Made by a program: the position numbers and the translations under genes | Source: Actinomycetota bacterium | Lineage (GTDB): Bacteria > Actinomycetota > Thermoleophilia > Solirubrobacterales > Solirubrobacteraceae | Reading direction: 5' to 3' | Assembly: GCA_005888335.1 (NCBI GenBank) | Contig: VAWY01000146.1 | Span: 1 to 16,825, forward strand | DNA length: 16,825 nt | The notes under the pieces: generated by a model | Databases searched by the model: none | Told to the model about the DNA's origin: nothing | What the model saw: the letters and a program-made list of their open reading frames with translations, nothing else | Shown here: positions 2,641-14,673 of the stretch, piece after piece | Position numbering within the stretch: position 1 is the stretch's first letter | Layout of the letters: every line of letters begins with the position of its first letter

Positions 2641-2744
2641 CCTTCGGCTCTTCCTTTCGACGTTCGACGTTGCCTGATCGTGGCGCCATCTCCGCTGGTG
2701 CGGCATGGGCTGGAGCGCCCATCCTGCGGCTGGCCAGGCTGCAT

Positions 2745-3021: not shown

Positions 3022-3423
3022 TCACACAACCGTGAGCTCGGCGAGCAGCGGGCCGACGGCGCTCCGGAGTTCCCCGCACGCGCGACTGGCCGTCCGGATG
3101 GCGTCGCCGGCTGCGACGAAGTCGTCAGACAGTCGCCCGGCCGTCGCCGACGCATCGTCGCCGAGGACGGGCCAGGCGCTCCTGATTCGTTTCAGGCTGC
3201 CTTCGCGGAGCAGGTCTGTCGCCACCGCCGCCTGCTCGAGCGCGCTCTCCAGGCAACGGAGCGTGGACGCGACAGCGGCTTCGTTGTTGCGTCCGCCGGC
3301 CGCGGCGCGCAGTTCGGCAGCCGCCGCTCGGACGTCGCACGCGCGGTCGTAGAGCTCCTTGCTGGGATCCCGTCGCCGGGTGCTGGAAAACCGGGTGTTC
3401 GGCTTGCCGGTGGTCAATGTCAT
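3022..3423 (-). CDS. Helical hypothetical protein, first gene of ferredoxin-dps-acn operon
   Basis: A 133-residue protein I do not recognise. After a basic N-terminus it is alanine-rich and predicted mostly helical (KELYDRACDVRAAAAELRAA, then LESALEQAAVATDLLREG, then GDAIRTASRACGELRSAVGP), resembling a four-helix bundle with no signal peptide or membrane segment. The stop is 7 nt before the ferredoxin GTG, which supports an operon. GAGG lies only a base or two before the ATG, so the ribosome site is poor. A copy of the recurrent 20-bp element sits 35 nt upstream of the ATG, the same spacing as at several other genes here. Function unknown. Confidence 0.75.
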   Translation of the reverse strand: MTLTTGKPNTRFSSTRRRDPSKELYDRACDVRAAAAELRAAAGGRNNEAAVASTLRCLESALEQAAVATDLLREGSLKRIRSAWPVLGDDASATAGRLSDDFVAAGDAIRTASRACGELRSAVGPLLAELTVV

Positions 3424-3457
3424 GCCTCGATGCTTTCACCGGTGATTCGACGCGACC

Positions 3458-3477
3458 ATGGGGCCGCGGATGCATGC
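3458..3477 (-). promoter_or_regulatory. Recurrent 20-bp element, site 1 (upstream of hypothetical-fdx-dps-acn operon)
   Basis: On the minus strand this reads GCATG-N9-CCCCAT. The final T lies 35 nt before the ATG at 3423. It matches the consensus GGATG-N9-CCCCAT in 10 of 11 fixed positions. Whether it is an operator or part of a core promoter is not known. Confidence 0.55.
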
Positions 3478-3497
3478 GGCGTGACGCGACGCGTGTC

Positions 3498-3656
3498 TTA
3501 CGCCACCCGACGAGGCGGCGGAGGCGGGTCAGGGATCAACACGTAGGTTTCGCTGTCGGGCGCCCAGGCCGGGTGCGCGTGCGTGCTTGGGTCGACCTCG
3601 CGACCGACGACAACGTCGAGGTACAGGCGGAGCGGGCCACTGAACAGGGGGATCAT
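3498..3656 (-). CDS. Small hypothetical protein, proline-rich tail
   Basis: A 52-residue protein beginning MIPLFSGPLRLYLDVVVG and containing HAHPAWAPDSETYVLIPD before a run of prolines. Unlike the arginine-rich shadow frames around it, its composition is that of a normal protein. Its ATG overlaps the stop codon of the upstream 49-residue frame as ATGA at 3653-3656, the same junction type seen repeatedly in this window, and this is the main reason for calling it. It ends in TAA. No known family is recognised and function is unknown. Confidence 0.5.
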   Translation of the reverse strand: MIPLFSGPLRLYLDVVVGREVDPSTHAHPAWAPDSETYVLIPDPPPPPRRVA

Positions 3657-3802
3657 TCGGACTCCCAGCTCCCGACGGCAACCGCTGCAGCGACGAGCAG
3701 CGGCGTCGCCAGCGTCGCGCCAGCCTGTCTGCCGCCGGCCTTCGCACTGGTGGTTGTCTCAGGGTCGATTTCCACGACGGTCTCGACGTGTTGTGCGCAC
3801 AC
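3653..3802 (-). CDS. Small single-pass membrane protein (hypothetical)
   Basis: A 49-residue frame from GTG at 3802. It has an acidic/polar N-terminal half (HVETVVEIDPETTTSAKAGG) followed by one likely membrane helix (ATLATPLLVAAAVAVGSW). It is joined to the next small gene by an ATGA overlap. The GTG is the only usual start codon between the upstream in-frame stop and the conserved-looking part, but no clear ribosome site is seen. A weak copy of the recurrent element lies 27 nt upstream. Function unknown; the call rests on composition and on the coupling. Confidence 0.42.
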   Translation of the reverse strand: MCAQHVETVVEIDPETTTSAKAGGRQAGATLATPLLVAAAVAVGSWESE

Positions 3803-3828
3803 GCTCTCGGCCGGCGTCGATGGCGACC

Positions 3829-3848
3829 ATCCGGCCAGAGCCCCATCG
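3829..3848 (-). promoter_or_regulatory. Recurrent 20-bp element, site 2 (weak)
   Basis: Minus strand reads CGATG-N9-CCGGAT. It is the poorer kind of match, and its spacing of 27 nt to the GTG at 3802 differs from the usual 35-39, so it may be chance. Confidence 0.25.
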
Positions 3849-3932
3849 CGGGCGTCGTCATGACTGCATCCGGGTCGTCTCGCGCCGGTTCAGCCCGACA
3901 GAGGCCGCGAGCGAGATCTCAGGATCCGGGGC

Positions 3933-4052
3933 TCAGAGGATCGCGTCGACCACGATGGTGGCCAGGGCGACGAGCAAGAACAGAGCGATCGCACGAAGCA
4001 TCACTTCGACGGGCGCACGTCGCCGGTGACGGATGCTGACGAAGATCATCAT
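3933..4052 (-). CDS. Very small membrane protein (hypothetical)
   Basis: A 39-residue protein beginning MMIFVSIRHRRRAPVEVM and ending in a single membrane helix, LRAIALFLLVALATIVVDAI. The positive residues before the helix suggest the C-terminus lies outside (positive-inside rule). The first ATG overlaps the stop of the upstream 77-residue membrane protein as ATGA at 4049-4052; a second ATG follows directly. No SD is needed if translation is coupled. Not assignable to a family. It could form a small membrane complex with its partner (inference). Confidence 0.5.
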   Translation of the reverse strand: MMIFVSIRHRRRAPVEVMLRAIALFLLVALATIVVDAIL

Positions 4053-4282
4053 CGCGCTTGGCGAATCCGGGTTCGGCTGCTCGCGATGGCATGGGACCGC
4101 CTTCGCGGCTTCGTGTCCGCGCGATACGGCTGCGAAGAGCGCGCGAGCTGGTCGGCGAACAGCGCGCCGCCGACGACGATGAGCGCCCAACCGATTCCAG
4201 CCGACCACCCGCTGGCCACCACCGCGATACCTGCGAGGCAGGGCGCGGCCAACCACACTTGTCGCAGAACTCGAGTACGCAT
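4049..4282 (-). CDS. Small two-helix membrane protein (hypothetical)
   Basis: A 77-residue protein: short basic N-terminus (MRTRVLRQVW), two adjacent hydrophobic helices at about residues 10-45 (LAAPCLAGIAVVASGW and GIGWALIVVGGALFADQLA), then a strongly basic cytosolic tail rich in Arg and Ser. It is first in a pair with the 39-residue membrane protein through an ATGA overlap. A good copy of the recurrent element lies exactly 35 nt upstream of the ATG and abuts a second copy pointing the other way. No family recognised. Confidence 0.6.
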   Translation of the reverse strand: MRTRVLRQVWLAAPCLAGIAVVASGWSAGIGWALIVVGGALFADQLARSSQPYRADTKPRRRSHAIASSRTRIRQAR

Positions 4283-4316
4283 GGCCGTACCGTCGCGCCC
4301 TGCGCCCGGCTCGTGG

Positions 4317-4336
4317 ATCGGGACAGGACTCCATCC
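4317..4336 (-). promoter_or_regulatory. Recurrent 20-bp element, site 3 (upstream of the 4282 gene)
   Basis: Minus strand reads GGATGGAGTCCTGTCCCGAT. The last T is 35 nt before the ATG at 4282. It is nearly identical in its first half to the site before the tandem Usp gene (GGATGGAG at both) although the genes are unrelated. Confidence 0.6.
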
Positions 4337-4356
4337 GGGTGCGTTGCCGTCCCCAT
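4337..4356 (+). promoter_or_regulatory. Recurrent 20-bp element, site 4 (back to back with site 3)
   Basis: Plus strand reads GGGTG-N9-CCCCAT and begins at the base following site 3, so the two form a divergent pair. It is 32 nt upstream of an in-frame GTG (4388) that is an alternative start of the gene annotated at 4451. Confidence 0.5.
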
Positions 4357-4395
4357 GTCCGCCGTGGACCGGCCGCCCCGCGAAGCGGTGGCCGC

Positions 4396-4415
4396 GACTG
4401 CAGGCTCGGCCCCAT
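4396..4415 (+). promoter_or_regulatory. Recurrent 20-bp element, site 5 (half match)
   Basis: Plus strand reads GACTG-N9-CCCCAT, with the CCCCAT half perfect (preceded by GG as at other sites). The last T is 36 nt before the ATG at 4451. Confidence 0.35.
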
Positions 4416-4450
4416 GGTTGCTGCTACCAGCGCGGCTGATCATCCGACCC

Positions 4451-4924
4451 ATGCCCTCGTCCTCTGATGGCATCGCTCGACTTCCTCGCAGCGTCATCGC
4501 TCGACAGCTCGCGCGGATGCGCGCGGCGTTGCGACACGGCAAGCTCGATGCGGCGCTCGCCGTCGGCCAGGACCCATGGAGCGCCGCCGACCTCATGGTG
4601 CGGGCCTCCGCGCTGAGTTCATTCGCTATGCAGACGAGGCTGGCCGCCTCGCTCGAACAGCTGGTCGACGCCGCCGAACTGCTGCCCGTGTCTCGGTACA
4701 TCCGTACGCGCACGGTGCTGACTCACCGTGAGTCGCTGCTCGCCCTTGCGTCGCGGCTACGGGAGCTGGCACCTGTCGAGGTCGCCGTCGCGGCTCGCCT
4801 GTCAAAGCTCGTGTGGGATCAGGCGAGTCCCGCGTATCAAGCCGGAGATCCGGGACCGCTGTTCGCCGAGGTCATTGCCCGATCGGTGCATGTTCTGCGA
4901 GACGAACGCAGCGAGCCCCGCTGA
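4451..4924 (+). CDS. Helical hypothetical protein
   Basis: A 157-residue protein I cannot assign. It is basic and helix-rich throughout (SVIARQLARMRAALRHGKLD, SLEQLVDAAELL, ALASRLRELAPVEVAVAARL, LFAEVIARSVHVLRDERSE), without membrane segments or cysteine motifs. The ATG at 4451 is chosen because the frame upstream becomes arginine- and proline-rich shadow sequence; GTG at 4388 would add 21 residues and is favoured if the upstream element at 4337 drives it. No SD site is visible. It lies upstream of a Usp gene on the same strand with a 105-nt gap that holds another copy of the element, so they are probably separate transcription units. Confidence 0.65.
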   Translation: MPSSSDGIARLPRSVIARQLARMRAALRHGKLDAALAVGQDPWSAADLMVRASALSSFAMQTRLAASLEQLVDAAELLPVSRYIRTRTVLTHRESLLALASRLRELAPVEVAVAARLSKLVWDQASPAYQAGDPGPLFAEVIARSVHVLRDERSEPR

Positions 4925-4972
4925 CCCCACGGTCGACACGAAACGGCCGGCACATGACGAAGGCAGCCGCCG

Positions 4973-4992
4973 ATGTGCGGTCGTGGCCCCAT
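4973..4992 (+). promoter_or_regulatory. Recurrent 20-bp element, site 6 (half match)
   Basis: The right half GGCCCCATGG is perfect; the left half reads ATGTG at the standard spacing, or CGATG with an 11-nt spacer starting at 4971. The last T is 38 nt before the Usp ATG at 5030. Confidence 0.35.
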
Positions 4993-5029
4993 GGCGCCGC
5001 ACCGGGTGGTCGACGAACTTGTCAACTGC

Positions 5030-5482
5030 ATGTTCCGCCGACTCCTCGTCCCGCTCGACAGCTCACCGCACGCCCGGCACGCACTTGCCGAGGCGATCGA
5101 TCTCGCGAAGTCGAACAACGCCAGGCTCACGGTGATGACTGTGGTGCCCGAGCCGTCGGCATGGGCGACGCTGGGGGCGATCGACGCGCCGATCAATCTG
5201 CGCGAGCTCAACGAGCAGGTCGAGCACGCTTACCAGAGGATCCTTGACGCCGCCGTCGAGACGGTCCCTCAGGATCTCTCGGTGAAGACGCTTCTCAAGC
5301 ATGGAGCGCCGGGCGCGGCGATCGTCGACGAGGTCACGGCCCACGATCACGACCTGATCATCATGGGCTCGCGCGGGCGCGGCGAGCTTCGGTCGCTGCT
5401 GCTCGGCAGCGTCAGCCGCCACGTCCTTCACGAGAGCCCGATCCCCGTGCTCGTCGTGCATGTCCCCGGCGACCAGTCGTAG
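5030..5482 (+). CDS. Universal stress protein, single UspA domain, ATP-binding type
   Basis: A 150-residue cytosolic Usp. It starts with the typical beta strand and acidic residue (MFRRLLVPLDSSPHARHAL, D10) and carries the complete nucleotide-binding signature G-2x-G-9x-G-S at G113-S127 (GSRGRGELRSLLLGS), followed by the final strand PIPVLVVHVP. The family binds ATP and acts in stress survival or dormancy; the exact partner is unknown. ATG at 5030 is chosen over the ATG at 4973 because Usp domains start directly at this strand. No SD is visible. The next gene (WrbA-like) converges on it with only 27 nt between stops. Confidence 0.93.
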   Translation: MFRRLLVPLDSSPHARHALAEAIDLAKSNNARLTVMTVVPEPSAWATLGAIDAPINLRELNEQVEHAYQRILDAAVETVPQDLSVKTLLKHGAPGAAIVDEVTAHDHDLIIMGSRGRGELRSLLLGSVSRHVLHESPIPVLVVHVPGDQS

Positions 5483-5509
5483 GCCGGGGCGATCAGAACG
5501 TGCCGACGC

Positions 5510-6184
5510 TCAAGGCGACCGCTCGTTCCACTGTGCGATCGCTCGGGGGACGGGGAAACCCGACAACGACGGAAGGCCGTCCCGTGAATCGTCCGAGTCG
5601 AGTCGGCCATCGCGCCAGATCACGCAGTGACGGGCGTCGGCTACGGCGAGCTGCACCACGATGTGCCCGAACCGGGCGCCATGACGCTCGGCGGCCTTTC
5701 GTGACGCCTCGTCGGGCCGCCCGCCCGAGTCATAGGTGACGCCGGACGAGTCGTCGCTCCACCCCGGCACGCGCTCCCCGCTGTAGCCGCCGGGCACGAC
5801 CGCGAGCCCGAGCCGCAGGCACAGCTGGCTCAGCGCACGGACCGTGGGCTCGGCCTGGGCTTTGGGCAGCGAGGTGAGGACCGCCGCGCAGCGCACGCCC
5901 AGATCGCCGGTCCGAAGCAGCGCCAAGACGTCGGGATGCACGCTGGCGAGCAGGTACCCGACCGCATCATCGCCGTCGACTGATGACGCGAGGCAGAGCC
6001 CGCGGCTCTCGGCAAGGAGGCGGCGAAGCTCTCTCGGAGCCGGCGCGGCAAGGTCATCGACGGCGATGTGCGCGACCGAGGCGCCCTCGCGCCTCGCGCC
6101 TCGCGCGAAGGCACTGGCGAGGATCCCGATCGGATCGCCCGCGCCGATATCGAGCACGGTGACGCTCATCGCTGGTGGTCGCAT
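5510..6184 (-). CDS. Flavodoxin/WrbA-like protein with degenerate FMN loop
   Basis: A 224-residue (or 219 from ATG 6169) alpha/beta protein. The N-terminal strand SVTVLDIGAGDPIGILASAFARGARREGASV and the C-terminal DDSSGVTYDSGGRPDEASRKAAERHGARFGHIV resemble the NAD(P)H:quinone oxidoreductase WrbA, whose C-terminus has a Gly-Gly-Asp-Gly-Ser-Arg segment followed by a helix. The usual phosphate-binding S/T-x-T-G-x-T loop is not present; GAGDPIG stands in its place, so FMN binding is uncertain. ATG 6184 is preferred because the upstream element is then 39 nt away, close to other sites; ATG 6169 (MSVTVL) fits the fold equally well. It is divergent from the tandem Usp gene. Confidence 0.7.
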   Translation of the reverse strand: MRPPAMSVTVLDIGAGDPIGILASAFARGARREGASVAHIAVDDLAAPAPRELRRLLAESRGLCLASSVDGDDAVGYLLASVHPDVLALLRTGDLGVRCAAVLTSLPKAQAEPTVRALSQLCLRLGLAVVPGGYSGERVPGWSDDSSGVTYDSGGRPDEASRKAAERHGARFGHIVVQLAVADARHCVIWRDGRLDSDDSRDGLPSLSGFPVPRAIAQWNERSP

Positions 6185-6222
6185 GTCACTTCGCAGCGTC
6201 GCTCGCCGCGGAGCGCGTTCCC

Positions 6223-6242
6223 ATGCACTCACGGGCTCATCT
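6223..6242 (-). promoter_or_regulatory. Recurrent 20-bp element, site 7 (upstream of WrbA-like gene)
   Basis: Minus strand reads AGATG-N9-GTGCAT. It keeps GATG and the terminal CAT; the last T is 39 nt before ATG 6184. The equivalent site before the Usp at 11882 is GGATG-N9-GTGTAT. Confidence 0.4.
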
Positions 6243-6272
6243 CGCGGGGAACACGGCTCGCGCTCGCGAGCA

Positions 6273-6292
6273 GGATGGAGGCCTCGCCCCAT
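6273..6292 (+). promoter_or_regulatory. Recurrent 20-bp element, site 8 (upstream of tandem Usp)
   Basis: Plus strand reads GGATGGAGGCCTCGCCCCAT, a perfect match to GGATG-N9-CCCCAT. The last T is 35 nt before the ATG at 6327, and it is separated by 30 nt from the divergent site 7. Confidence 0.6.
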
Positions 6293-6326
6293 GCCCAGCG
6301 CAGCTCGCGCCTACCAGGCTTGTGGC

Positions 6327-7253
6327 ATGCGTCTTCATCGACCAACGATCGTCTGCGGGGTCGACGGCTCTTCGCGAACGGGTGAGCTCGTGCGGATCGC
6401 GGCCCGGCTCGCCGATGTCCTCGACACCCATTTGGAAGTCGTTCACGTCCTCGGCGCGTCCTCGCAGCGCCCGTCGCTGGCATCTGCCGCGACCACCGCC
6501 GGCTCCGGCTGGGCGGCCGGCAACGTTCTGACCGCGGACGTCAACGACAGCGAACTTGCCGCGGTCGCCATGCTCGACGAGGTTTGCCAGGCGGTCGGGG
6601 CTCGGACGGCAGGACGGCAAGTCATTCGCTACGGCGACCCGGCGCGCCGTCTCGCCGCCATCGCCGAGGGCAGCGAGGCTCTCCTCGTCGTCATGGGCAG
6701 CTGCCGCGACGCCCGGGACCGCGACGGGCTCCTCGGCAGCGTGGCCAGCCGACTGGCGGCTGACGCACCCTGTCCGGTGCTGATCGTGGCCTCGGGCCTC
6801 GAGCCGCACGTCCGGCCTGAGGAGTGGCGAGGACGCACGCTGGTCGCGGGCTTCGACGGCTCGGCGCCGGGTTGGGCTGCCGCGTGCCAAGCGGCGACCC
6901 TCGCCGAGCAGCTTGACAGCGCCTTGATCGTCGCCAGCGTCGGCCCTGGTGCCGCGGTCGCGACCAATGACGTCGTGCTCCCGCTGCAGGAAACCGTTTC
7001 TCGTCAGCGAGATCCGAACTGCGCGGCCACCGACCTGACTGTCCACCACGAGATGCGAGACGGGGATCCCGCGTGGGAGCTGGAAGCCGTCGCCGCCGCG
7101 ATCACCGCGCCCCTTATCGCGATCGGCTCCCGAGGCCTCGGACCGTGGCGTGAACCGCTGCTCGGCTCGGTGGCACGTCACCTGCTCAGCGCAGCGCGGC
7201 GCCCGATTCTCGTCCTGCCCGCAGCCTCACTGCTGCACGGAGGCGCGGCATGA
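6327..7253 (+). CDS. Universal stress protein, two tandem Usp domains
   Basis: A 308-residue protein with two Usp domains. Domain 1 (about 1-155) begins RPTIVCGVDGSSRTGELVRI and ends APCPVLIVAS; its nucleotide signature is partly lost (GSCRDARDRDGLLGS, the second Gly is Arg). Domain 2 (about 165-300) begins GRTLVAGFDGSAPGWAAACQ and has an intact G-2x-G-9x-G-S (GSRGLGPWREPLLGS), so probably only the second domain binds ATP. The start ATG lacks an SD but lies 35 nt after a perfect copy of the recurrent element. The stop overlaps the next Usp gene as ATGA at 7250-7253, starting a chain of coupled frames that ends with the hemerythrin gene. Confidence 0.93.
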   Translation: MRLHRPTIVCGVDGSSRTGELVRIAARLADVLDTHLEVVHVLGASSQRPSLASAATTAGSGWAAGNVLTADVNDSELAAVAMLDEVCQAVGARTAGRQVIRYGDPARRLAAIAEGSEALLVVMGSCRDARDRDGLLGSVASRLAADAPCPVLIVASGLEPHVRPEEWRGRTLVAGFDGSAPGWAAACQAATLAEQLDSALIVASVGPGAAVATNDVVLPLQETVSRQRDPNCAATDLTVHHEMRDGDPAWELEAVAAAITAPLIAIGSRGLGPWREPLLGSVARHLLSAARRPILVLPAASLLHGGAA

Positions 7254-7984
7254 CGAACCTGAGACGCATCCTCTTTGTCGGCGACCCGGGGGAGCCGCGA
7301 GCGCAGGCGGCAAGCGATCTCGCCAGCCGTATGTCGGCGACGCTCTCGTTCCTCCCCGCCGGTGTCGGATCGGCCGCGACGGGCGTCGATCGACGTGCTT
7401 CGGGCACAAGGGGCACAGTCGCGACGCTCGATCCTCCCATTCCGCAGGAGGTCGTCATCAGGGCCGGCAAGCAGCGGGCCGACCTCATCGTCGCCGGCCC
7501 GCCAATGCCCGACGAGGTGGCCGTTCGACTGGCGGACGAGACAGGTTGTCCAGTGCTGGTACTGCCGGAGTCGAGCACACGACTGCCCAGGCGGCCCAAC
7601 ATCTTGGTCGGCCTCGACGATCACGGAGACCCAGACGCGATCGTCGGCGCGACGACGCGCGTGGCACAGGCAGTCGGTGGACGGCTGACGCTCGTACACG
7701 TCGTCGAGCTGTACTCGCGCGACCTTCACGTCCAGCTCGATGCCGGATGGCGGGTGCTCGCCTCCGCGGTCCGGCTCATCAGTCCCCACGTGTCGGCGTC
7801 CGCCACGGTTCTTGTCGGCGATCCCGCAGGCGAGCTGCTCGACGCCGCCGCGGGAAGTCAGGCGGACATCATCGCCATCGGCGCGCCGGGCGACGTGTCA
7901 GCCGGCGTGAACTCGGTAGCCGCGGCAGTCCTCGGGGACGCGGGTTGCCCCATCCTGTTGGTGCCCGGAGAAGGCGTCGCATGA
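7250..7984 (+). CDS. Divergent tandem universal stress protein
   Basis: A 244-residue protein with two Usp-like halves. The first (about 1-105, LRRILFVGDPGEPRAQAASD to GCPVLVLPES) is shortened and has no nucleotide signature. The second (about 110-244) starts PNILVGLDDHGDPDAIVGAT and ends GCPILLVPGEG; its signature GAPGDVSAGVNSVA lacks the last Gly. ATP binding is therefore doubtful and the protein may act as a structural or regulatory partner of the preceding tandem Usp (inference). The start overlaps the upstream stop (ATGA, 7250-7253) and the stop overlaps an 18-codon mini-ORF (ATGA, 7981-7984), so all are probably made from one message. Confidence 0.88.
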   Translation: MTNLRRILFVGDPGEPRAQAASDLASRMSATLSFLPAGVGSAATGVDRRASGTRGTVATLDPPIPQEVVIRAGKQRADLIVAGPPMPDEVAVRLADETGCPVLVLPESSTRLPRRPNILVGLDDHGDPDAIVGATTRVAQAVGGRLTLVHVVELYSRDLHVQLDAGWRVLASAVRLISPHVSASATVLVGDPAGELLDAAAGSQADIIAIGAPGDVSAGVNSVAAAVLGDAGCPILLVPGEGVA

Positions 7985-8037
7985 GCTTCTTCGTCGAGCG
8001 ACAGCCTGATCATCCGGGCAACCGCGTGAAGTCATGA
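7981..8037 (+). CDS. 18-codon mini-ORF bridging Usp and hemerythrin genes
   Basis: Encodes MSFFVERQPDHPGNRVKS. Its ATG overlaps the stop of the divergent Usp gene as ATGA (7981-7984), and its own stop overlaps the start of the hemerythrin gene as ATGA (8034-8037). A random 53-nt gap would rarely be spanned exactly with both junctions of this type. It may serve as a translational bridge that keeps ribosomes moving to the hemerythrin start, or it may be a gene remnant. No function is claimed for the peptide. Confidence 0.4.
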   Translation: MSFFVERQPDHPGNRVKS

Positions 8038-8483
8038 ACAGAGACCCGGCACTCATCTCGCTCTCGCGCGACCATCACAAGACCCTGGTGGCCGCTCAAG
8101 AGCTGCGGCGGGCCACCGCGCAAACGGCAGCCGACGTCCGCGCGCGGTTTCTCTCGTACTGGAACACACATGGCCGCGCGCACTTCCGTACGGAGGAAGA
8201 GGTGCTGCTGCCCGCGTTCGCCGCGCACGGAGATCCCTATCACCGGCTGGTTGGCCGCGCGCTGTGCGACCACGTTGCGATCCGCCAGCGGGTCGATGCC
8301 CTCGTCAGCGAATCGCCAGCGCTACCTGCTGTCCTGCACGACCTCGGCAGCCGACTCGCCGAACACGTACGGCTCGAGGAACGAGAGCTGTTCCCGCTGA
8401 TCGAGCGGACGATGCCCGCTGCACGACTCGCCGCGGTGGCGGTCGCGCTTGAGCAGGCGGCCGCCGGCAAGCCCGGTGAGTGA
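8034..8483 (+). CDS. Hemerythrin-like HHE domain protein
   Basis: A 149-residue four-helix protein expected to bind a di-iron centre. Candidate iron ligands in order: SRDHHKTL (residues 11-18), the HFRTEEEVLLPAF segment around residue 46, LCDHVAIRQRV in the third helix, and LAEHVRLEERELFPLIE in the fourth, which together give the His/Glu set of the HHE family. Members sense or carry O2 or NO or take part in iron and redox stress responses. It is the last gene of the coupled Usp chain and converges with the anti-sigma gene (8 nt between stops). The pairing with Usp genes fits a low-oxygen or redox stress role (inference). Confidence 0.92.
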   Translation: MNRDPALISLSRDHHKTLVAAQELRRATAQTAADVRARFLSYWNTHGRAHFRTEEEVLLPAFAAHGDPYHRLVGRALCDHVAIRQRVDALVSESPALPAVLHDLGSRLAEHVRLEERELFPLIERTMPAARLAAVAVALEQAAAGKPGE

Positions 8484-8491
8484 GATGACAC

Positions 8492-8722
8492 CTAGGACTG
8501 CTGGGCGACGAGGTCGCGAAGGCTGTCGTGATCCTCGTGGCATGCCGGGCAGCCCTGCAGATGGGCGCGCATGCCGGGCAGCCGGGCGTCGGCGTCCTCG
8601 CCGGCCAGCTCCAGCTCGACGTACTCGTCGAGTAGCTCGAAGCACTCCTCGCAACTCACTTCAGGGCCTAGCGGACCCAAGAGCGCAGCGATCAGTTCGG
8701 TATGTCGGGGATCAGTGGTCAT
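8492..8722 (-). CDS. Zinc-finger anti-sigma factor, soluble
   Basis: A 76-residue protein with the mycothiol-system style anti-sigma (zf-HC2) layout: CEECFELLDEYVELELAGED followed by RAHLQGCPACHEDHDSL, giving a CxxC near residues 25-28 and an H-x3-C-x2-C at about 55-61. There is no membrane segment, so it is a cytosolic ZAS protein, probably redox-responsive through zinc and thiols (family knowledge). Its ATG at 8722 lies inside the 3' end of the ECF sigma gene (11-bp overlap), the usual arrangement for a sigma/anti-sigma pair. It would bind and silence that sigma factor until stress. Confidence 0.87.
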   Translation of the reverse strand: MTTDPRHTELIAALLGPLGPEVSCEECFELLDEYVELELAGEDADARLPGMRAHLQGCPACHEDHDSLRDLVAQQS

Positions 8723-9455
8723 GTCCGGCTCCGATGGCGGTGGTCGTCTCGAGGGCAAGACCGGCGACGGCGAGCGCCGCCCGAAGCTTGCGTCGAGCAT
8801 CGTGAAGCGTCTTGTAGAGCGCCCCGCGCGTCGTGTTCAGCCGCTCGGCGAGCACGTCGATCGGAACGCCCCCGAGTGCGAGCGCGCAGAAGACCTCGCG
8901 CTGGTGGGAAGTCAGCTCGGTGCGCACCGCAGCGCGCAGCGCGTCGAGCGTCTCGGTGTCCTCGACGACCTGCTGCGCGGAGGCGCCGCCGTCCCGCATC
9001 GCCGGCCAGGCGTTTTCGTCGAGCATCACCTCGCGACCGTGCCAGCTACGCCGCCGCGCCTTGACCCCCGCCTCGAGCAACACGAACTTGTACGCCCATG
9101 TGGTGAAGCGACTGGCTCCCCGGAAAGTGTCGAGCTTGGCGAGGATGGCCACGAGCGCGTCATTCGCGGCCTGCGTGGCCAGGTCGTCGAACTCGCCGTA
9201 TGGCACGTGGCTGAGCGTCTGGCGGCGCCGGTTGAGCTCGAAGTGCGCACCGCGCAGCAGCAGGTCGTGCAGATCGGCGACCGCCTCGTCGCGCACGGCG
9301 GCGGGTCCGCGCAACGCGGCGAGCCACGCGTGTGAATCGCGTTGAGCGTCCCCCGCGTCGTGTTGTGCGGCGCCTGGCACGCGTCTCCGAGCGTAGACGC
9401 GCGCGGCCGGGCCCCTGGAGACGGGGATCGCTTCGGTGGCCGTCAAATGCATCAT
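8712..9455 (-). CDS. ECF-type RNA polymerase sigma factor
   Basis: A 247-residue sigma-70 family protein. Region 2 is seen in LATQAANDALVAILAKLDTF and FRGASRFTTWAYKFVLLEAG; region 4 is LTSHQREVFCALALGGVPID then LAERLNTTRGALYKTLHDAR, a helix-turn-helix that binds the -35. The N-terminal 35 or so residues are atypical and basic, so the true start may be further in. The listed start is the first of two ATG codons at 9455, without a convincing SD. It overlaps the anti-sigma gene by 11 bp. The sequence CGACGTAAG lies 30 nt upstream and recurs 30 nt before a mini-ORF leading to the patatin gene, hinting at common control. Confidence 0.88.
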   Translation of the reverse strand: MMHLTATEAIPVSRGPAARVYARRRVPGAAQHDAGDAQRDSHAWLAALRGPAAVRDEAVADLHDLLLRGAHFELNRRRQTLSHVPYGEFDDLATQAANDALVAILAKLDTFRGASRFTTWAYKFVLLEAGVKARRRSWHGREVMLDENAWPAMRDGGASAQQVVEDTETLDALRAAVRTELTSHQREVFCALALGGVPIDVLAERLNTTRGALYKTLHDARRKLRAALAVAGLALETTTAIGAGHDH

Positions 9456-9484
9456 GGTTCGTTCGCGACGACGCGCCGAGGTTT

Positions 9485-9493
9485 CTTACGTCG
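9485..9493 (-). promoter_or_regulatory. Shared CGACGTAAG motif upstream of sigma gene
   Basis: Minus strand CGACGTAAG, last base 30 nt from the sigma-factor ATG. The same 9-mer occurs on the plus strand at 10080-10088, also 30 nt from an ATG. It could be a -10 region. No matching -35 was found. Confidence 0.25.
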
Positions 9494-9516
9494 CTCGTCG
9501 TTATGCCGACCCTGAT

Positions 9517-10011
9517 TCAGGCTGCCCAGCGCGCACCGGCGTCGCAGTGACCGCGGCCCGGCGAGCGGCGTACGGGAATCCGCTGAACCGGAAGACCGCT
9601 GATGCGCTCGGCTCGGTGGCTGAGATCGAGTGGGTTCCACGCCCACGCCCAGCGGTCGCGGGCGAAGAGCAGGATCTCGCTCGCGGGATGAGTGACGAGC
9701 GCGTCGCCGATGGCGGTGATCGGGTCGGGATCGCCCACGCCGGAGACCTCGATGGCCAGTCCCTCGGCGACACAGAGCTGCTTCAGGGTGACGAGCTGGA
9801 GATGCGCACACGGCGCACTCGCAGACGGATCGCCCACCCAGTCCAGGCCGTGCAGCCACGCCGGGACCATCAGGATGAACGACGCGTCGTGGTCGGCCCT
9901 TCGCCGGCAGGCCGCGACGACTGTGGCCGGGTCGGCGGTCCAGTCGGCGACGACAAGGACTCGAGCGTTCGTCCGCGGCGAACTCGCTGCTTGGTGTCCG
10001 TTCATCTCCAT
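9517..10011 (-). CDS. Usp-like alpha/beta protein (hypothetical)
   Basis: A 164-residue protein with alternating strands and helices: ARVLVVADWTADPATVVAAC, then ASFILMVPAWLHGLDW, then GDPDPITAIGDALVTHPASE followed by ILLFARDRWAWAWNPLDLSH. The order of strands and the strand-Asp at the start resemble the Usp/HUP fold, but the G-2x-G-9x-G signature is replaced by an aromatic stretch (RDRWAWAWNP), so this is a distant or non-ATP-binding relative. The start at 10011 is supported by GGAGA about 6 nt upstream; an open frame continues further but is then the shadow of the patatin gene. It is divergent from the patatin gene, with a shared intergenic region. Confidence 0.68.
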   Translation of the reverse strand: MEMNGHQAASSPRTNARVLVVADWTADPATVVAACRRRADHDASFILMVPAWLHGLDWVGDPSASAPCAHLQLVTLKQLCVAEGLAIEVSGVGDPDPITAIGDALVTHPASEILLFARDRWAWAWNPLDLSHRAERISGLPVQRIPVRRSPGRGHCDAGARWAA

Positions 10012-10079
10012 CGTCGTCTCCAGTCGTGGGGTGACCCGATGTGCGAGGGCGACCTCAACGTTCATACGTCGGCGCCGGT

Positions 10080-10088
10080 CGACGTAAG
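10080..10088 (+). promoter_or_regulatory. Shared CGACGTAAG motif upstream of patatin mini-ORF
   Basis: Same 9-mer as before the ECF sigma gene, and again 30 nt from an ATG (10118, the mini-ORF). This suggests that the sigma factor may drive both its own gene and the patatin unit, but the case rests on two sites. Confidence 0.25.
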
Positions 10089-10117
10089 GGTTCGGCGTCG
10101 CCCAGCGCAAACGGGAC

Positions 10118-10153
10118 ATGACGAACTTGACCGACACCCAACTGCGGTCATGA
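10118..10153 (+). CDS. 11-codon mini-ORF upstream of patatin gene
   Basis: Encodes MTNLTDTQLRS and stops in an ATGA overlap (10150-10153) with the patatin start. No strong SD is seen in front of either start. It may be a translated leader that couples into the patatin gene; chance is possible because the frame is short. Confidence 0.28.
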   Translation: MTNLTDTQLRS

Positions 10154-11037
10154 GCGTCGCCTTCGTGCTTTCGGGCGGCGCCAGCCTGGGCGCGGTTCAG
10201 GTCGGCATGCTCAGAGCGCTCGTCGACGAAGGCATTCGCCCTGACCTGCTGGTCGGCACCTCGGTCGGCGCCGTCAACGGCGCGTTCCTCGCAGGGCGCG
10301 ACTTCACCCGGCAGAGCGTTGACGAGCTCGCTGAGCTGTGGCTCAGCGTCCGGCGCGGCCAGGTGTTCCCGCTCGAGCCAGTGACCGGCCTCCTCGGCTT
10401 CCTCGGCGCGCGCAAGAACTTGGTCCCCGACCGTGCGCTGCGGCGGCTGATCAGCCGGAACACCGACTGCGACCGTCTGGAGCAGCTCCCCATTCCGCTC
10501 CACGTCGTCGCGTGCGACGTCCTCACCGGCACGGAAGTACGGCTCTCGGACGGCCCGCTGGTCGATGCCGTGCTGGCCAGCGCTGCCATCCCTGGAGTCC
10601 TGCCGCCCGTCGACTGGAACGGGCGCCTGCTCATCGACGGTGGCGTGATCAACAACACCCCGATCACGCATGCGCTCGAGCTCGGCGCCACCGAGATCTA
10701 CGTGCTGCCCACGGTTGGCCCCTGCGCCCTGACCGAGGCACCGCGTGGCGCCCTCGGAATGCTGGTGTACGCCACCAGCCTCATGGTCGCCCACCGCTTT
10801 GCCGCCGAGACGCTGACACTCAACGACCGCGCCGACGTGACCATCCTTCCGCCGCCCTGCCCGATGACCGTCCAGCCGATGGACTTCGGGCATGCCGAAG
10901 AGCTGATGCAGCGCGCCGAAGCCGATGCGCGACCCTTCCTGGCGGATCGCGAGCCGCGTGTGGTGCCTCTGCCTCGACGGCGGACGCCGCTTCGCGCGAG
11001 CCCCGTGCCGAACTGCGACCTGCCGTCGGCCAGTTGA
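10150..11037 (+). CDS. Patatin-like phospholipase
   Basis: A 295-residue lipid acyl hydrolase of the RssA/patatin class. The oxyanion-hole glycines are in SGGASLGAVQVG (8-19), the nucleophile is S38 in GTSVGAVNG (GxSxG), and the dyad aspartate is D163 in LLIDGGVINNTP. The region ACDVLTGTEVRLSDGPLVDA and SAAIPGVLPP are also typical. It would release fatty acids from phospholipids or act on another lipid ester; the substrate cannot be told. ATG 10150 is chosen because the protein begins with the first strand MSVAFVLSGG, and the long frame upstream is a shadow of the Usp-like gene. The C-terminal tail is basic and low complexity. The stop is followed 8 nt later by a small conserved-looking gene. 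Confidence 0.93.
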   Translation: MSVAFVLSGGASLGAVQVGMLRALVDEGIRPDLLVGTSVGAVNGAFLAGRDFTRQSVDELAELWLSVRRGQVFPLEPVTGLLGFLGARKNLVPDRALRRLISRNTDCDRLEQLPIPLHVVACDVLTGTEVRLSDGPLVDAVLASAAIPGVLPPVDWNGRLLIDGGVINNTPITHALELGATEIYVLPTVGPCALTEAPRGALGMLVYATSLMVAHRFAAETLTLNDRADVTILPPPCPMTVQPMDFGHAEELMQRAEADARPFLADREPRVVPLPRRRTPLRASPVPNCDLPSAS

Positions 11038-11045
11038 GTACGGCG

Positions 11046-11261
11046 ATGGACGGGCATCTGGACCACCAGCCGCGCGCCGTGCTGCACGTACCGCGCGACG
11101 TCATCGTCTGGCGCCGGAGCTTGCTCGTCGAGGCGGGATTCGAACCGGAGCTGGCGCGCGAATTGTCAAGCCACGCCGGATACGACCTCCACGACTTGCT
11201 GAACCTGGTCGATCGAGGCTGTTCACCACCGCTCGCGGCTCGGATCCTCGCGCCGTTCTGA
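11046..11261 (+). CDS. Small hypothetical protein downstream of patatin
   Basis: A 71-residue protein with a normal composition: VIVWRRSLLVEAGFEPELAR then LSSHAGYDLHDLLNLVDRGC and SPPLAARILAPF. It reads like a short helical protein whose middle resembles a helix-hairpin that recognises the C-terminal end as a conserved block; I recall similar small proteins in actinobacterial genomes but cannot name a family. ATG 11046 lies 8 nt after the patatin stop, so the two are likely one transcript; TTG at 11034 is an alternative start. No membrane segment or cysteine pair. Function unknown. Confidence 0.65.
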   Translation: MDGHLDHQPRAVLHVPRDVIVWRRSLLVEAGFEPELARELSSHAGYDLHDLLNLVDRGCSPPLAARILAPF

Positions 11262-11336
11262 GTACCGCTATCCCGGGGTCACACCCGTGACCTACACACG
11301 TCATCGGCGGTCCACCGTATCGCCGGTCGCACGCCG

Positions 11337-11882
11337 TCAGGAGGGCATGTGGGGGCCGCCGCCGACCGGCGGCGACATGACGACAACCGGACACCGGGCT
11401 GCACGGGACACATCCCCCGAGAGCCATGACGGGCCGAAGACGATCAGCAGGCGCGCGTCTTGGTCGTGCGCGAAGCGCGTCAAGAGGCACTGCGTGCTCC
11501 GGCCGCCTCTCAAGAGCTCGAACTGTCGCTCCCCGATCACTCGCCGGACGTTCGCAACCACGCGGTGCCGGGTCGTCAAGCGGGCGCGAGCGTCTAGGGC
11601 GCGCGTACCGACGTCGTCAACCTCCGCGAGCGAAACCGCGTGGGCAAGGACCAACGGTGCGTCGACCTCGGCCCCCAGTGCGCCGGCCAAACGCATCGCA
11701 CGTCGGGCGTCGCTCGACGCATCGACGGCGCAGACGATCGGCCCGACGTGGGCGGCGTGGCTTCCTGTGGGCACCAGGACAAACGCGGATCCGTCGCGGA
11801 GGCCACGCAAGTGGCGCTCGAGGTGCCACATGAGCTCGTCCTGGGCGACGTTCGCATCGGGAGGCGGGAGGAGGATTGCCAT
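11337..11882 (-). CDS. Universal stress protein, divergent single domain
   Basis: A 181-residue protein. After about 45 residues of leader sequence, the Usp domain begins GPIVCAVDASSDARRAMRLA, continues DAPLVLAHAVSLAEVDDVGT and ends ARCPVVVMSPPVGGG. The nucleotide signature is not recognisable (VFGPSWLSGDVSRA), so ATP binding is doubtful. The ATG at 11882 has no SD. Its upstream region is a clear relative of the region before the WrbA-like gene at 6184, including a copy of the recurrent element 37 nt upstream, and it is divergent from the stump of another Usp gene. Together they form a copy of the divergent promoter block at 6184-6327. Confidence 0.85.
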   Translation of the reverse strand: MAILLPPPDANVAQDELMWHLERHLRGLRDGSAFVLVPTGSHAAHVGPIVCAVDASSDARRAMRLAGALGAEVDAPLVLAHAVSLAEVDDVGTRALDARARLTTRHRVVANVRRVIGERQFELLRGGRSTQCLLTRFAHDQDARLLIVFGPSWLSGDVSRAARCPVVVMSPPVGGGPHMPS

Positions 11883-11918
11883 CTAGTCACAGCTTGGCCC
11901 GCCGCGGGGTGCGTTCCT

Positions 11919-11938
11919 ATACACGCGCGGGCCCATCC
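11919..11938 (-). promoter_or_regulatory. Recurrent 20-bp element, site 9 (upstream of minus-strand Usp)
   Basis: Minus strand reads GGATG-N9-GTGTAT. The left half is perfect, and the last T is 37 nt before ATG 11882. Confidence 0.45.
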
Positions 11939-11968
11939 GGTTGGTGCTCGGCGGTCGTTTGCGCATCC

Positions 11969-11988
11969 GGATGCAGCCCCGGCCCCAT
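11969..11988 (+). promoter_or_regulatory. Recurrent 20-bp element, site 10 (upstream of Usp stump)
   Basis: Plus strand reads GGATGCAGCCCCGGCCCCAT, a perfect match, 35 nt before ATG 12023. The gap of 30 nt to the divergent site 9 equals the gap between sites 7 and 8. Confidence 0.58.
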
Positions 11989-12022
11989 ACCACCGGGGCG
12001 CGGGCATCGCCACGCTCTTGGC

Positions 12023-12085
12023 ATGGCTCGTGCTCGACCGACGGTCATCTGCGCCCTCGACCGCGCCGTCCCGGGGCAGGCATGA
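12023..12085 (+). pseudogene. N-terminal stump of a Usp gene, now a 20-codon leader ORF
   Basis: Encodes MARARPTVICALDRAVPGQA. The first 13 residues match the start of the tandem Usp at 6327 (MRLHRPTIVCGVDGSS), and the upstream DNA is also related to that gene's promoter region, so this is the remnant of a paralogous Usp whose body has been lost. The stop forms an ATGA overlap (12082-12085) with a small membrane-protein gene, so the stump is probably still translated and now couples into that gene. The intact promoter element upstream suggests that it is still expressed (inference). Confidence 0.6.
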
Positions 12086-12372
12086 GCGTCTTCGTCTGGT
12101 CGATGGTCGGAATCGCGATCTGGCACTTCACGATCTTCGTTCCGGATCGGTTCGCCGGCGGGATCGTGGGCGCTTTCCTGGCGGCGTGGATGGGCGGCGT
12201 CGCGTCGGGCTTCGTCATCGAGGGCTTCGCTCTCCCAAGCGACAACCCACCCGGGATGCGGCATGCGCTCTACGCGCTGCCTGGCTCTCTGTTAGGCCTC
12301 GTTGCCTGCTACGGCTACGGCGCGAGGGCCCAACGGCTCCGACACCAGCTGACGGTGAGGAGTGCGGACTGA
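12082..12372 (+). CDS. Small membrane protein, about three helices (hypothetical)
   Basis: A 96-residue protein with hydrophobic segments at about 4-20 (FVWSMVGIAIWHFTIFV), 25-48 (AGGIVGAFLAAWMGGVASGFVI) and 64-80 (ALYALPGSLLGLVACYGYGA), and a basic C-terminal tail. The glycine-rich helices resemble small GlsB/YeaQ-type membrane proteins, but the match is only general. Its ATG overlaps the Usp stump stop as ATGA, so it has taken over the Usp promoter and translation start. Function unknown. Confidence 0.65.
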   Translation: MSVFVWSMVGIAIWHFTIFVPDRFAGGIVGAFLAAWMGGVASGFVIEGFALPSDNPPGMRHALYALPGSLLGLVACYGYGARAQRLRHQLTVRSAD

Positions 12373-12569: not shown

Positions 12570-12620
12570 AGGACACGTGACTAGGTCTCCGCGAACCCCA
12601 GCCTGGCTCAGAGACCTGGA

Positions 12621-13439
12621 TCAGTTGACTGCCAGGCTGAGGTGGGGCCCGAGGCTGTCGTCGAAGAGGTGGCCGTACTTGTCGAGGGTGAACGCGGCGG
12701 AGTGGTGGCCCATCCAGCGCTGCAGGCGAAGTGGGCTTGCGCCGGCGTCGATGAGCAGCGCGGCGCGCCCTGAACGCCGACAACAGCAACTCCGTGTCGC
12801 CACGTCCGACGATGACCGCTGGCAACCGCGTGGCGAGCGGGTGGCTGACCGGGATCGTGCGTCGGCCGTGCCGCGACTTGGGGCCGGTGAGCTGGCCGTT
12901 GACGATCGCGCGGCGCACGTGGATCCTCGGCTGCGCTGCGTCGAGGTCGGCGTCCATGACCCGCAGGGCGATCGCCTCGGAGATCCGCAGACCGGTCGCG
13001 GCCAGCAGTTCGAAGAGCGGCCGCCATTCGTCTGGGATCTCGGCCAGCGGCCGCGCGAGCTGCTGGCGTGTGAGGAAGCGACGCTCGTCGAACCGCGTCC
13101 GCGCCTACGCCTCGGCAGCAAGATCACCGGCTCCGCGCCATCGCGGAGCAGGCCGGCCCGGACGGCGTGGCGCAGGCAGGACTGCAGAGGCAACACGGCG
13201 TTCCGCACCGAGCGGTCAGTGAGTCGGTGACCGTCCTCATCGGTCAGGCGGCATAGCCAGTCGACGTACGCACGCGCACGGCGCTCGTCGATGTCGCGCA
13301 GTCGCTCGTCGGGAGCGGAAGGTTGTCCGGCATGGCTATCGGTCCCCGCCGCACGAGCTACCCGCCAGGCGGGCCGCCGGGCACACCCATCATGTCGCTC
13401 GCCGCGTCGCACGAGAGCTTCGCCGTCCTGCGATTTCAC
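12621..13439 (-). pseudogene. Tyrosine recombinase/integrase remnant
   Basis: Phage-type integrase homology runs in three pieces and two frames. The core-binding part (RLRDIDERRARAYVDWLCRL to AVRAGLLRDGAEPVILLP) starts near 13304; the ATG at 13439 is nominal and the upstream residues look like shadow sequence. At about 13098-13125 the frame changes by one base, and homology continues with TRFDERRFLTRQQLARPLAE, LLAATGLRISEAIALRVMDA and GPKSRHGRRTIPVSHPLA (catalytic Arg and Lys region). Near 12755-12775 it jumps back to the first frame at LLIDAGASPLRLQRWMGHHS and TLDKYGHLFD (second His and Tyr). The H-x-x-R box between them is missing, so an internal deletion has removed a catalytic segment. 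It cannot be an active enzyme. Confidence 0.85.
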
Positions 13440-13644: not shown

Positions 13645-13694
13645 CGCGCCCGACAGGATTCGAACCTGTGACCTTCGGTTCCGTAGACCGACAG
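13645..13694 (-). pseudogene. 3' half of a tRNA-Arg (ACG) gene, probable att core
   Basis: On the minus strand the anticodon stem-loop (TCGGT-CTACGGA-ACCGA, anticodon ACG), variable region, T-arm (ACAGG-TTCGAAT-CCTGT) and acceptor 3' strand CGGGCGC with discriminator G are all present. The D-arm and the 5' acceptor strand (which should read GCGCCCG) are absent; the sequence departs from tRNA at about 13695. A tRNA cut at the anticodon stem next to a broken integrase is the usual signature of an att site. Whether a complete copy exists elsewhere cannot be seen. Confidence 0.8.
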
Positions 13695-13734
13695 CCACGG
13701 GGTGATATTTGGCTGTGTAGAGCCAAATCCGTGG
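13695..13734. repeat. Bulged 14-bp hairpin at the tRNA fragment boundary
   Basis: CCACGG (13695-13700), a 6-nt bulge, ATTTGGCT (13707-13714), loop GTGTAG, AGCCAAAT (13721-13728) and CCGTGG (13729-13734). It begins exactly where tRNA similarity ends. It may mark the recombination core or a structured single-strand att site. Confidence 0.55.
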
Positions 13735-14020: not shown

Positions 14021-14266
14021 ATGGCCACCGCGCGTCGCACCGTCCGCGTCGAGCTCGACGAGAGGCTCGTGTCACGCGCGCGCGCGCAAGCGCGCGACGA
14101 CAGCCGGCCCGATGACGAGATCATCGAGGATGCCCTCAGCCGCTACCTCCTAGAGCGCCTACTCGACAACACCCAGCAACGCTCCAATCTGGGCGAGGAA
14201 GAGGCCACGCGCCTGGCGGTCGAGGAACTGCACGCCATGCGGCGCGAGCGCGACGCCGCTGCGTGA
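14021..14266 (+). CDS. VapB-type antitoxin (ribbon-helix-helix)
   Basis: An 81-residue protein with an N-terminal strand-helix-helix, TARRTVRVELDERLVSRARA then DDEIIEDALSRYLLERLL, as in ribbon-helix-helix DNA-binding antitoxins. The charged C-terminal part (GEEEATRLAVEELHAMRRER) would bind and neutralise the toxin. It likely dimerises and represses its own promoter (family knowledge). The stop overlaps the toxin start as GTGA at 14263-14266. The ATG follows a -10-like box directly. Confidence 0.82.
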   Translation: MATARRTVRVELDERLVSRARAQARDDSRPDDEIIEDALSRYLLERLLDNTQQRSNLGEEEATRLAVEELHAMRRERDAAA

Positions 14267-14673
14267 CGCGCGCGGTCGTCGACTCAAGCGTCCTCGTCTC
14301 CGCGCTCATCGCTCGACGCGACACGCCGCCGAGCCAGGTGCTCCGGGCATGGGCGCGCGAGCGCTTCGAGCTCGTCGTCAGCCCGAGGCTCATCGCCGAG
14401 GTCGCCGGCGTCCTCGCCCGCCCGAAGTTCGAGCCCTACCTCAGACCAGACGAGGCCAGCGACTTCCTCGACATGCTGCGCAGCGACGCCGTCGTTCACC
14501 CCGATCCCGCCGTCGTCGAGCGGGTGACCCGCGACCCCGGCGACGACTACCTCGTCGCCCTCGCCAGGGCCGCCCAGGCGGTGCTGGTCTCCAGCGACCG
14601 CGACGTCCTCGAGGCCGACATCGGCGACATCGAGGTGCTCAGCGCTCGCGAATTCCTCGACCGGCTCGCGTGA
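14263..14673 (+). CDS. PIN-domain toxin (VapC-like)
   Basis: A 136-residue PIN-domain ribonuclease. Metal-binding acids fit the family: D7 in AVVDSSVLVSALIARRDTPP, E in SPRLIAEVAGVLARPKFEPY, and the acidic pair in DPGDDYLVALARAAQAVLVS followed by SSDRDVLE. The arrangement is that of the COG1569 group of TA-associated PIN proteins. It would cleave RNA, possibly tRNA, when the antitoxin is lost. The start is GTG at 14263, overlapping the antitoxin stop by 4 bp. It converges with the quinone oxidoreductase gene with 15 nt between stops. Position next to the att remnant suggests it came with a mobile element (inference). Confidence 0.88.
   Translation: MTRAVVDSSVLVSALIARRDTPPSQVLRAWARERFELVVSPRLIAEVAGVLARPKFEPYLRPDEASDFLDMLRSDAVVHPDPAVVERVTRDPGDDYLVALARAAQAVLVSSDRDVLEADIGDIEVLSAREFLDRLA

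Follow-up and report, generated by a model that had tools for sequence, protein, structure and literature searches.

Positions 1 to 16,825 of contig VAWY01000146.1 (assembly GCA_005888335.1), from a bacterium of the Solirubrobacteraceae, are referred to here as the window, and they raise the question of why one short DNA element recurs, at a nearly constant distance, in front of genes as unlike as those for Usp proteins, small membrane proteins and a helical protein. A sequence-only reading of the window had drawn this element as GGATG-N9-CCCCAT, placed ten 20-nt copies of it, and taken it for either the operator of an unknown stress regulator or an unusual core promoter, perhaps with CCCCAT at -10. 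All ten copies were found again, each at its position and on its strand. The element is real but its drawing had to be changed: an imperfect palindrome of 18 bp, ATGSR-N6-RCCCCAT, stands 22 nt ahead of a -10 hexamer, SANNNT, which thus starts at the 23rd nucleotide 3' of the element. The best explanation, to which we give a probability of about three in four, is that these sites are the operator-promoters of one undescribed two-component stress regulon, controlled by a NarL/LuxR-type response regulator and a HisKA_3 kinase.

A palindrome in fixed register with a -10 hexamer

In its original form the pattern is weak: when up to three mismatches are allowed, it gives 39 matches in the window against 42.8 ± 6.6 in shuffled sequences. 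The copies at 6273 and 11969 fit it exactly, three others have one mismatch, one has two, two have three, and those at 6223 and 11919 are absent from the scan. In its left half, GGATG is better replaced by ATG and a loose dyad counterpart to the right half; the leading GG is a purine preference only.

Models were tried in both directions between the window and its relatives, the latter taken from 232 genomes of the order Solirubrobacterales. A relatives-only model, comprising the 18-mer and the -10 hexamer and trained on 22 sites of relatives, finds eight sites with a score of at least 15 in the window, against none in 20 first-order Markov shuffles and none in 79.4 kb from five aconitase loci of relatives; at a score of at least 11 the shuffles average 0.95 matches and the aconitase loci give one. 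No site of at least 13 is present in the five aconitase loci of Thermoleophilaceae. Seven of the ten copies (3458-, 3829-, 4317-, 4396+, 4973+, 6273+ and 11969+) reach a score of at least 15 with this model, whereas the copy at 4337 is better read as a tandem box and those at 6223 and 11919 are doubtful. The test is not fully independent for the columns of the element, because the relatives' sites were first located with a matrix that held window 18-mers, and the reverse test is the cleaner one. There, a window-only model trained on eight window sites was run on 30 loci (108 kb) chosen by regulator protein identity, and at a score of at least 16 it gives 17 matches in 11 of the 30 loci, against one in ten shuffled sets, none in the aconitase loci and two in 1.16 Mb of the relative G082 outside its regulator region. 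Without the five genomes that had suggested the link to the regulator, 11 matches remain in 8 of 25 loci.

The distance from element to start codon is regular, as the sequence-only reading had it, but its figures at the eight sites with an ATG were each one above the number of nucleotides between. The most frequent distance is 34 nt; counting the A of the ATG as +1 then places the -10 hexamer at -12 to -7 and the element between -52 and -35. CCCCAT falls at about -40 to -35, and it is ruled out as the -10 box because a conserved A/T pair stands further downstream. This pair was described on 28 sites, hand-picked from several matrix scans by element score and a plausible start: A stands at element+24 in 25 of the 28 and T at element+28 in 25, i.e., at -11 and -7, and both are present in 16 of the 16 sites with ATG at 34 nt. 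The corresponding background is 60 of 1541 (3.9%) ATG-started open reading frames (ORFs) of at least 200 aa in 1.2 Mb of G082. At -12, 27 of the 28 sites have G or C and none has T, and GGC is preferred immediately 3' of the element. The A/T pattern was first spotted by eye in 20 of these sites, and two (L140, L112) of the eight added later lack it; among the matches omitted are G082 821290, 1579113 (both strands), 1579187, 3092843, 3005659, 1062130, 1048271 and 1115586, as well as L113:489 and 1306, L121:2966 and L122:8730. Among 66 non-redundant full-model matches of at least 16, taken from the window and fetched whole-genome loci with the training sites included, the ATG lies at 34 nt in 25, at 35 nt in 10, at 36-38 nt in 7 and at none of these distances in 24.

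Such a layout would suit an activator site placed across the -35 region of a leaderless promoter. Leaderless or near-leaderless genes look common in G082, since upstream of 688 filtered starts TANNNT accumulates between -17 and -12 (7, 15, 15, 15, 14 and 16 occurrences, against 0-3 elsewhere from -40 to -6). The -10 found here, with G or C and never T at -12, is unlike these genome-wide boxes.

Recurrence in relatives and at kinase-regulator genes

The element is conserved at homologous genes, within limits. The helical protein encoded at 3022-3423 has matches in 13 of the 232 genomes, and a site precedes its homologue in all seven genomes with E ≤ 6.5e-6; the six genomes with weaker matches (E ≥ 2.9e-5) have no site of at least 13. 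Five of the seven had been seen by eye and built into the matrix, which then detected the other two, in G082 and G054. Two of the seven counterparts are imperfect, the -10 being out of register in G005 and the ATG lying at 26 nt in G195. The scan covered each whole locus, and the sites named are within about 130 bp of the match; 18 further close relatives of the helical protein are proteins without genomic context and were not placed.

Sites found by the matrix in further relatives mostly have their ATG 34 nt 3' of the element. In 1.2 Mb of G082 the matrix gives 84 matches of at least 11. Seven of them are followed after exactly 34 nt by the ATG of an ORF of at least 50 aa, where other distances give about 0.66 each, even though at least two of the seven (821290 and 1579113+) appear spurious. 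This peak, together with the conservation at homologues, supports the earlier suggestion that an unknown stress regulator has its operator, at a fixed distance, in front of genes that are not related. Over the 232 genomes a fixed 55-mer pattern matched 11 times, in 10 genomes, and its reversed control three times; it was dropped as too strict for practical use. Chance resemblance in GC-rich DNA, joined to duplication of one intergenic region, would fit the lack of enrichment of the written pattern and the presence of two duplicate regions, but the separate training and test sets, the fixed register of the -10 and the conservation at homologous genes make it very improbable.

In the Solirubrobacterales such promoters are clustered around genes for a HisKA_3 kinase and a NarL/LuxR-type regulator. 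In G195, G005 and G083 the genes near sites include a HisKA_3 kinase and a regulator at least 68% identical to that of G195, in which Pfam recognizes Response_reg (E 2.8e-28) and GerE (E 2.8e-17). Related kinases or regulators adjoin sites in G084 and G226, and in two genomes a site precedes the kinase gene itself, with the ATG at 39 nt in G082 and at 34 nt in G074. Near-perfect palindromes occur at regulator loci, and one of them (G044, L153:386) has in-register -10 hexamers to either side, with a Usp gene on one flank and a 349-aa ORF, kinase-like by eye, on the other. Pfam analysis of ten downstream proteins, selected from matches with recognizable genes rather than from all matches, identified two Usp, three GreA-like and one sigma-like protein, two kinases, one pyridine nucleotide oxidoreductase and one AAA+/M41 protease; Usp genes follow sites in G226, in G044 and in the window.

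Two kinds of protein were seen repeatedly behind the element. GreA-like proteins recur near kinase-regulator genes (L173:522-1088, L239:2944-3564, L247:14474-15040 and L113:5900-6496), and proteins of about 90-130 aa with a LIRC or LVRC start recur within about 75 nt of it (L113:6805 minus, G082 897893, L232:11056 minus and L247:17167 minus).

The promoter layout also brings to mind an alternative sigma factor, perhaps the ECF-like one encoded at 8712-9455, for which the conserved block would be the -35 part of its promoters and SANNNT the -10. A sigma-like gene is present in the window, the sigma-like genes of G005 and G046, alike by eye to it, have the element 34 nt before their ATG, and the absence of T at -12 sets these promoters apart from the TANNNT boxes of G082. 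In addition, the GGC preference leaves room for a weak hexamer, ATGGCC, at -36 to -31, which would stand 18 nt from the -10. Yet the element is dyad-like, the L153:386 copy serves a -10 in register on each side, and matches cluster around the kinase-regulator genes. The usual distance between -35 and -10 hexamers is 15-19 nt, and CCCCAT ends 22 nt before the -10, beyond it. Finally, the relatives-only model places no site before the sigma gene of the window, whereas those of G005 and G046 carry one. A sigma factor is on balance an unlikely explanation.

Slightly less probable again is that another dimeric regulator of the same gene set binds the palindrome, the kinase-regulator pair being merely one of its targets. 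In its favor, sites lie upstream of the kinase and regulator genes, and 17 of the 30 regulator loci have no match of at least 16 within 1.5 kb (final model). Against this stands an association with the protein itself: regulators with K or R, not E, at the start of the recognition helix have sites in 12 of 19 cases, and the others in 1 of 11 (Fisher p 0.007, relatedness not corrected). The association is a lead, which shared ancestry could also produce. Moreover, the GGG...CCC spacing of the element equals, by our own count, that of the OsdR operator of Streptomyces coelicolor (PMC5069765).

Several observations weigh against the two-component reading. Besides the 17 loci just mentioned, 8 of 19 larger stretches around regulators or their neighbors have no match of at least 16 (11 have one), and on the regulator tree the possession of a site is no more clustered than chance would give (8 changes, a number equally low or lower in 70 of 500 shuffles). 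Neither a kinase nor a regulator gene lies within the window. The left half of the element is loose, and covariation between the halves is not above column make-up. In G082 the full model gives 17 matches against 21 in an order-1 Markov control at a score of at least 13, 15 against 9 at 15, and 10 against 1 at 17; because it is not above the control below about 15, single low matches mean little.

A two-component regulon nevertheless accounts best for the whole. In this mechanism, a partner HisKA_3 membrane kinase, which the window's own organism would also possess, would phosphorylate the NarL/LuxR-type response regulator, and a dimer of the latter would bind the 18-bp dyad over the -35 region and contact RNA polymerase. 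The clustering of sites at its own genes is what points to this regulator as the binder. Transcription, presumably activated rather than repressed, would proceed from the SANNNT hexamer, with its A at -11 and T at -7, and would start at the start codon or no more than a few nucleotides from it, dps with its predicted 30-nt leader being different. The palindrome could serve genes on both sides, and the sites carried by the kinase and regulator genes themselves would provide autoregulation.

Sites and neighboring genes in the window

The sites of the window are collected in Table 1, with each element given as an 18-mer.

Table 1. Predicted operators and -10 hexamers in the window
Feature	Position	Strand	Score	-10 hexamer	Remarks
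Operator ATGGGCGCTCCAGCCCAT before dps	2705..2722	-	17.8 (relatives-only model)	CACGAT 2677-2682	
Operator before helical-protein gene 3022-3423	3458..3475	-	20.7	AAGCAT 3430-3435	ATG at 34 nt
Operator	3829..3846	-	19.8	GAGCGT 3801-3806	possible small membrane ORF behind (by eye)
Operator before small membrane protein 4049-4282	4317..4334	-	17.6	GACGGT 4289-4294	ATG at 34 nt
Probable tandem box beside the 4317 operator	4339..4356	.	12.5 (element only); 9.3 (full)		no -10 in register
Operator before ORF 4451-4924	4398..4415	+	23.0	GATCAT 4438-4443	ATG at 35 nt
Operator before Usp gene 5030-5482 (Usp by Pfam)	4975..4992	+	17.0	GAACTT 5015-5020	ATG at 37 nt
Doubtful operator before ORF 5510-6184	6223..6240	-	3.2 (element only)	GACGCT 6195-6200	-10 in register; duplicate of 11919
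Operator before Usp-Usp-hemerythrin run 6327-8483 (Pfam)	6275..6292	+	23.2	CAGGCT 6315-6320	ATG at 34 nt
Doubtful operator before Usp-like ORF 11337-11882	11919..11936	-	-3.0 (element only)	CAAGCT 11891-11896	-10 in register; duplicate of 6223
Operator before 12023-12085 (20-codon Usp-like remnant) and membrane protein 12082-12372	11971..11988	+	20.3	CACGCT 12011-12016	ATG at 34 nt

The site before dps had been overlooked; its promoter is predicted to start at about 2670, which would give a 30-nt leader to the dps ATG at 2640. Lacking a -10 in register, and with its center 22 bp from that of the 4317 site, the copy at 4337 is probably a tandem box; the same spacing is seen in G195, where two sites (L118 17382 and 17404) precede the second regulator. 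The divergent intergenic regions 6223-6292 and 11919-11988 can be aligned with each other as duplicates, which reduces four of the ten reported copies to two pairs. Hence the earlier statement that shared descent does not explain the element fails for 6223/6273 and 11919/11969. At the -10, both doubtful members (6223- and 11919-) show A and T in the correct places despite their low element-only scores.

Behind the 11971 operator, in the duplicated promoter copy, a 20-codon ORF resembling the start of a Usp gene (12023-12085) shares an ATGA overlap with the membrane protein gene 12082-12372, and a protein of G082 that is alike by eye to the latter has a site 34 nt 5' of its ATG (L124:10008).

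Around these sites, Pfam identifies a ferritin-like Dps, a 4Fe-4S ferredoxin, Usp domains at 5030-5482, 6327-7253, 7250-7984 and 11337-11882, hemerythrin at 8034-8483 and patatin at 10150-11037. The helical protein belongs to no Pfam or NCBIfam family, and its predicted structure consists of two helices (mean pLDDT 80.7). The aconitase at the left end of the window is 70-78% identical to those of the five Thermoleophilaceae loci and at most 64% identical to the other 75 loci returned, so that the window most likely comes from the Thermoleophilaceae. At 8712-9455 the sigma region-4 match of Pfam (23.5 bits vs 25.7) and the sigma70-ECF match of NCBIfam (42.8 vs 42.9) are below the cut-offs. The minus-strand segment 8486-9455 contains this ECF-like sigma ORF and then a short cysteine/histidine ORF that resembles, by eye, a zinc-finger anti-sigma factor. 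Further along, two overlapping small ORFs at 14021-14673 look by eye like a VapBC-type toxin-antitoxin pair, the first without a Pfam match. The sole Rfam match of the window is a weak tRNA one at 13649-13701 (minus; 29.9 bits against a gathering score of 29), which adjoins repeated ACTCGCCA-type stretches and a region at about 12600-13300 that is integrase-like by eye.

Relation to known systems and meaning of the proposed regulon

The closest parallels are DevR/DosR of Mycobacterium tuberculosis and OsdR. DevR/DosR uses one or more operators per promoter, the proximal one overlapping the -35 (PMC3029386), and OsdR recognizes the palindromic consensus AGGGCCGATCGGCCCT, with Usp genes around its two-component genes (PMC5069765). 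The present system is similar, having a NarL-subfamily regulator, an operator over the -35, one or more boxes, and Usp genes near the pair. It also shares a palindromic operator before Usp genes, at -52 to -35 if transcripts are leaderless, and sites before the kinase genes, here in G082 and G074. Unlike the operators of DevR and OsdR, the present one ends in ATG...CAT, and its regulon includes GreA-like and sigma-like genes.

The proteins differ further. DosS and DosT have two GAF domains, and the base-contacting residues of DosR are Lys179, Lys182 and Asn183 (PMC4082495). In contrast, the five HisKA_3 kinases scanned by Pfam (L118, L113, L116, L231 and L173) have HisKA_3 and HATPase domains, three of them also HAMP, and no GAF match. 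At the three positions, as we matched them on an alignment, the 30 regulators have K in 29 and R in 1, D or E in all 30, and R in 29 and H in 1, respectively, so that those of Lys182 and Asn183 differ. Because of the missing GAF match in five kinases and these two of three contact residues, the system is not classed as DevR; on the best reading of its sequences, it would work like DevR/OsdR without being a member.

Other named systems come near as well. VraR is the best PDB match of the two regulators tried (134 and 133 bits; DevR, 108 and 121), and the kinases match the LiaS model, among others. The gene set, however, differs from that of cell-wall stress regulons. None of the NCBIfam matches shown comes near its cut-off, the best being MctR with 176 of 300 bits, and therefore no named equivalog applies.

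Thermoleophilia are common in soil, and their gene control has hardly been studied. A search of the open literature on Solirubrobacter, Solirubrobacterales, Thermoleophilia and Conexibacter, by title and the start of the abstract and with subscription papers mostly outside its scope, returned no such system. Our wider proposal, which is tentative, is that a dormancy-like two-component regulon extends across the Solirubrobacterales with a rigid grammar: a two-way palindromic operator, 22 nt, a -10 without T at -12, and an ATG at +1. Ordinary, seemingly leaderless genes of G082 do have that T. The regulator may replace both the -35 and the -12 contacts, and RNA polymerase may be retuned through the GreA-like and sigma-like members. 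If this is true, the members of the regulon would be readable from DNA alone and the regulator to examine is already named; furthermore, a Usp-rich stress response resembling the one in M. tuberculosis would be under a kinase that lacks GAF domains.

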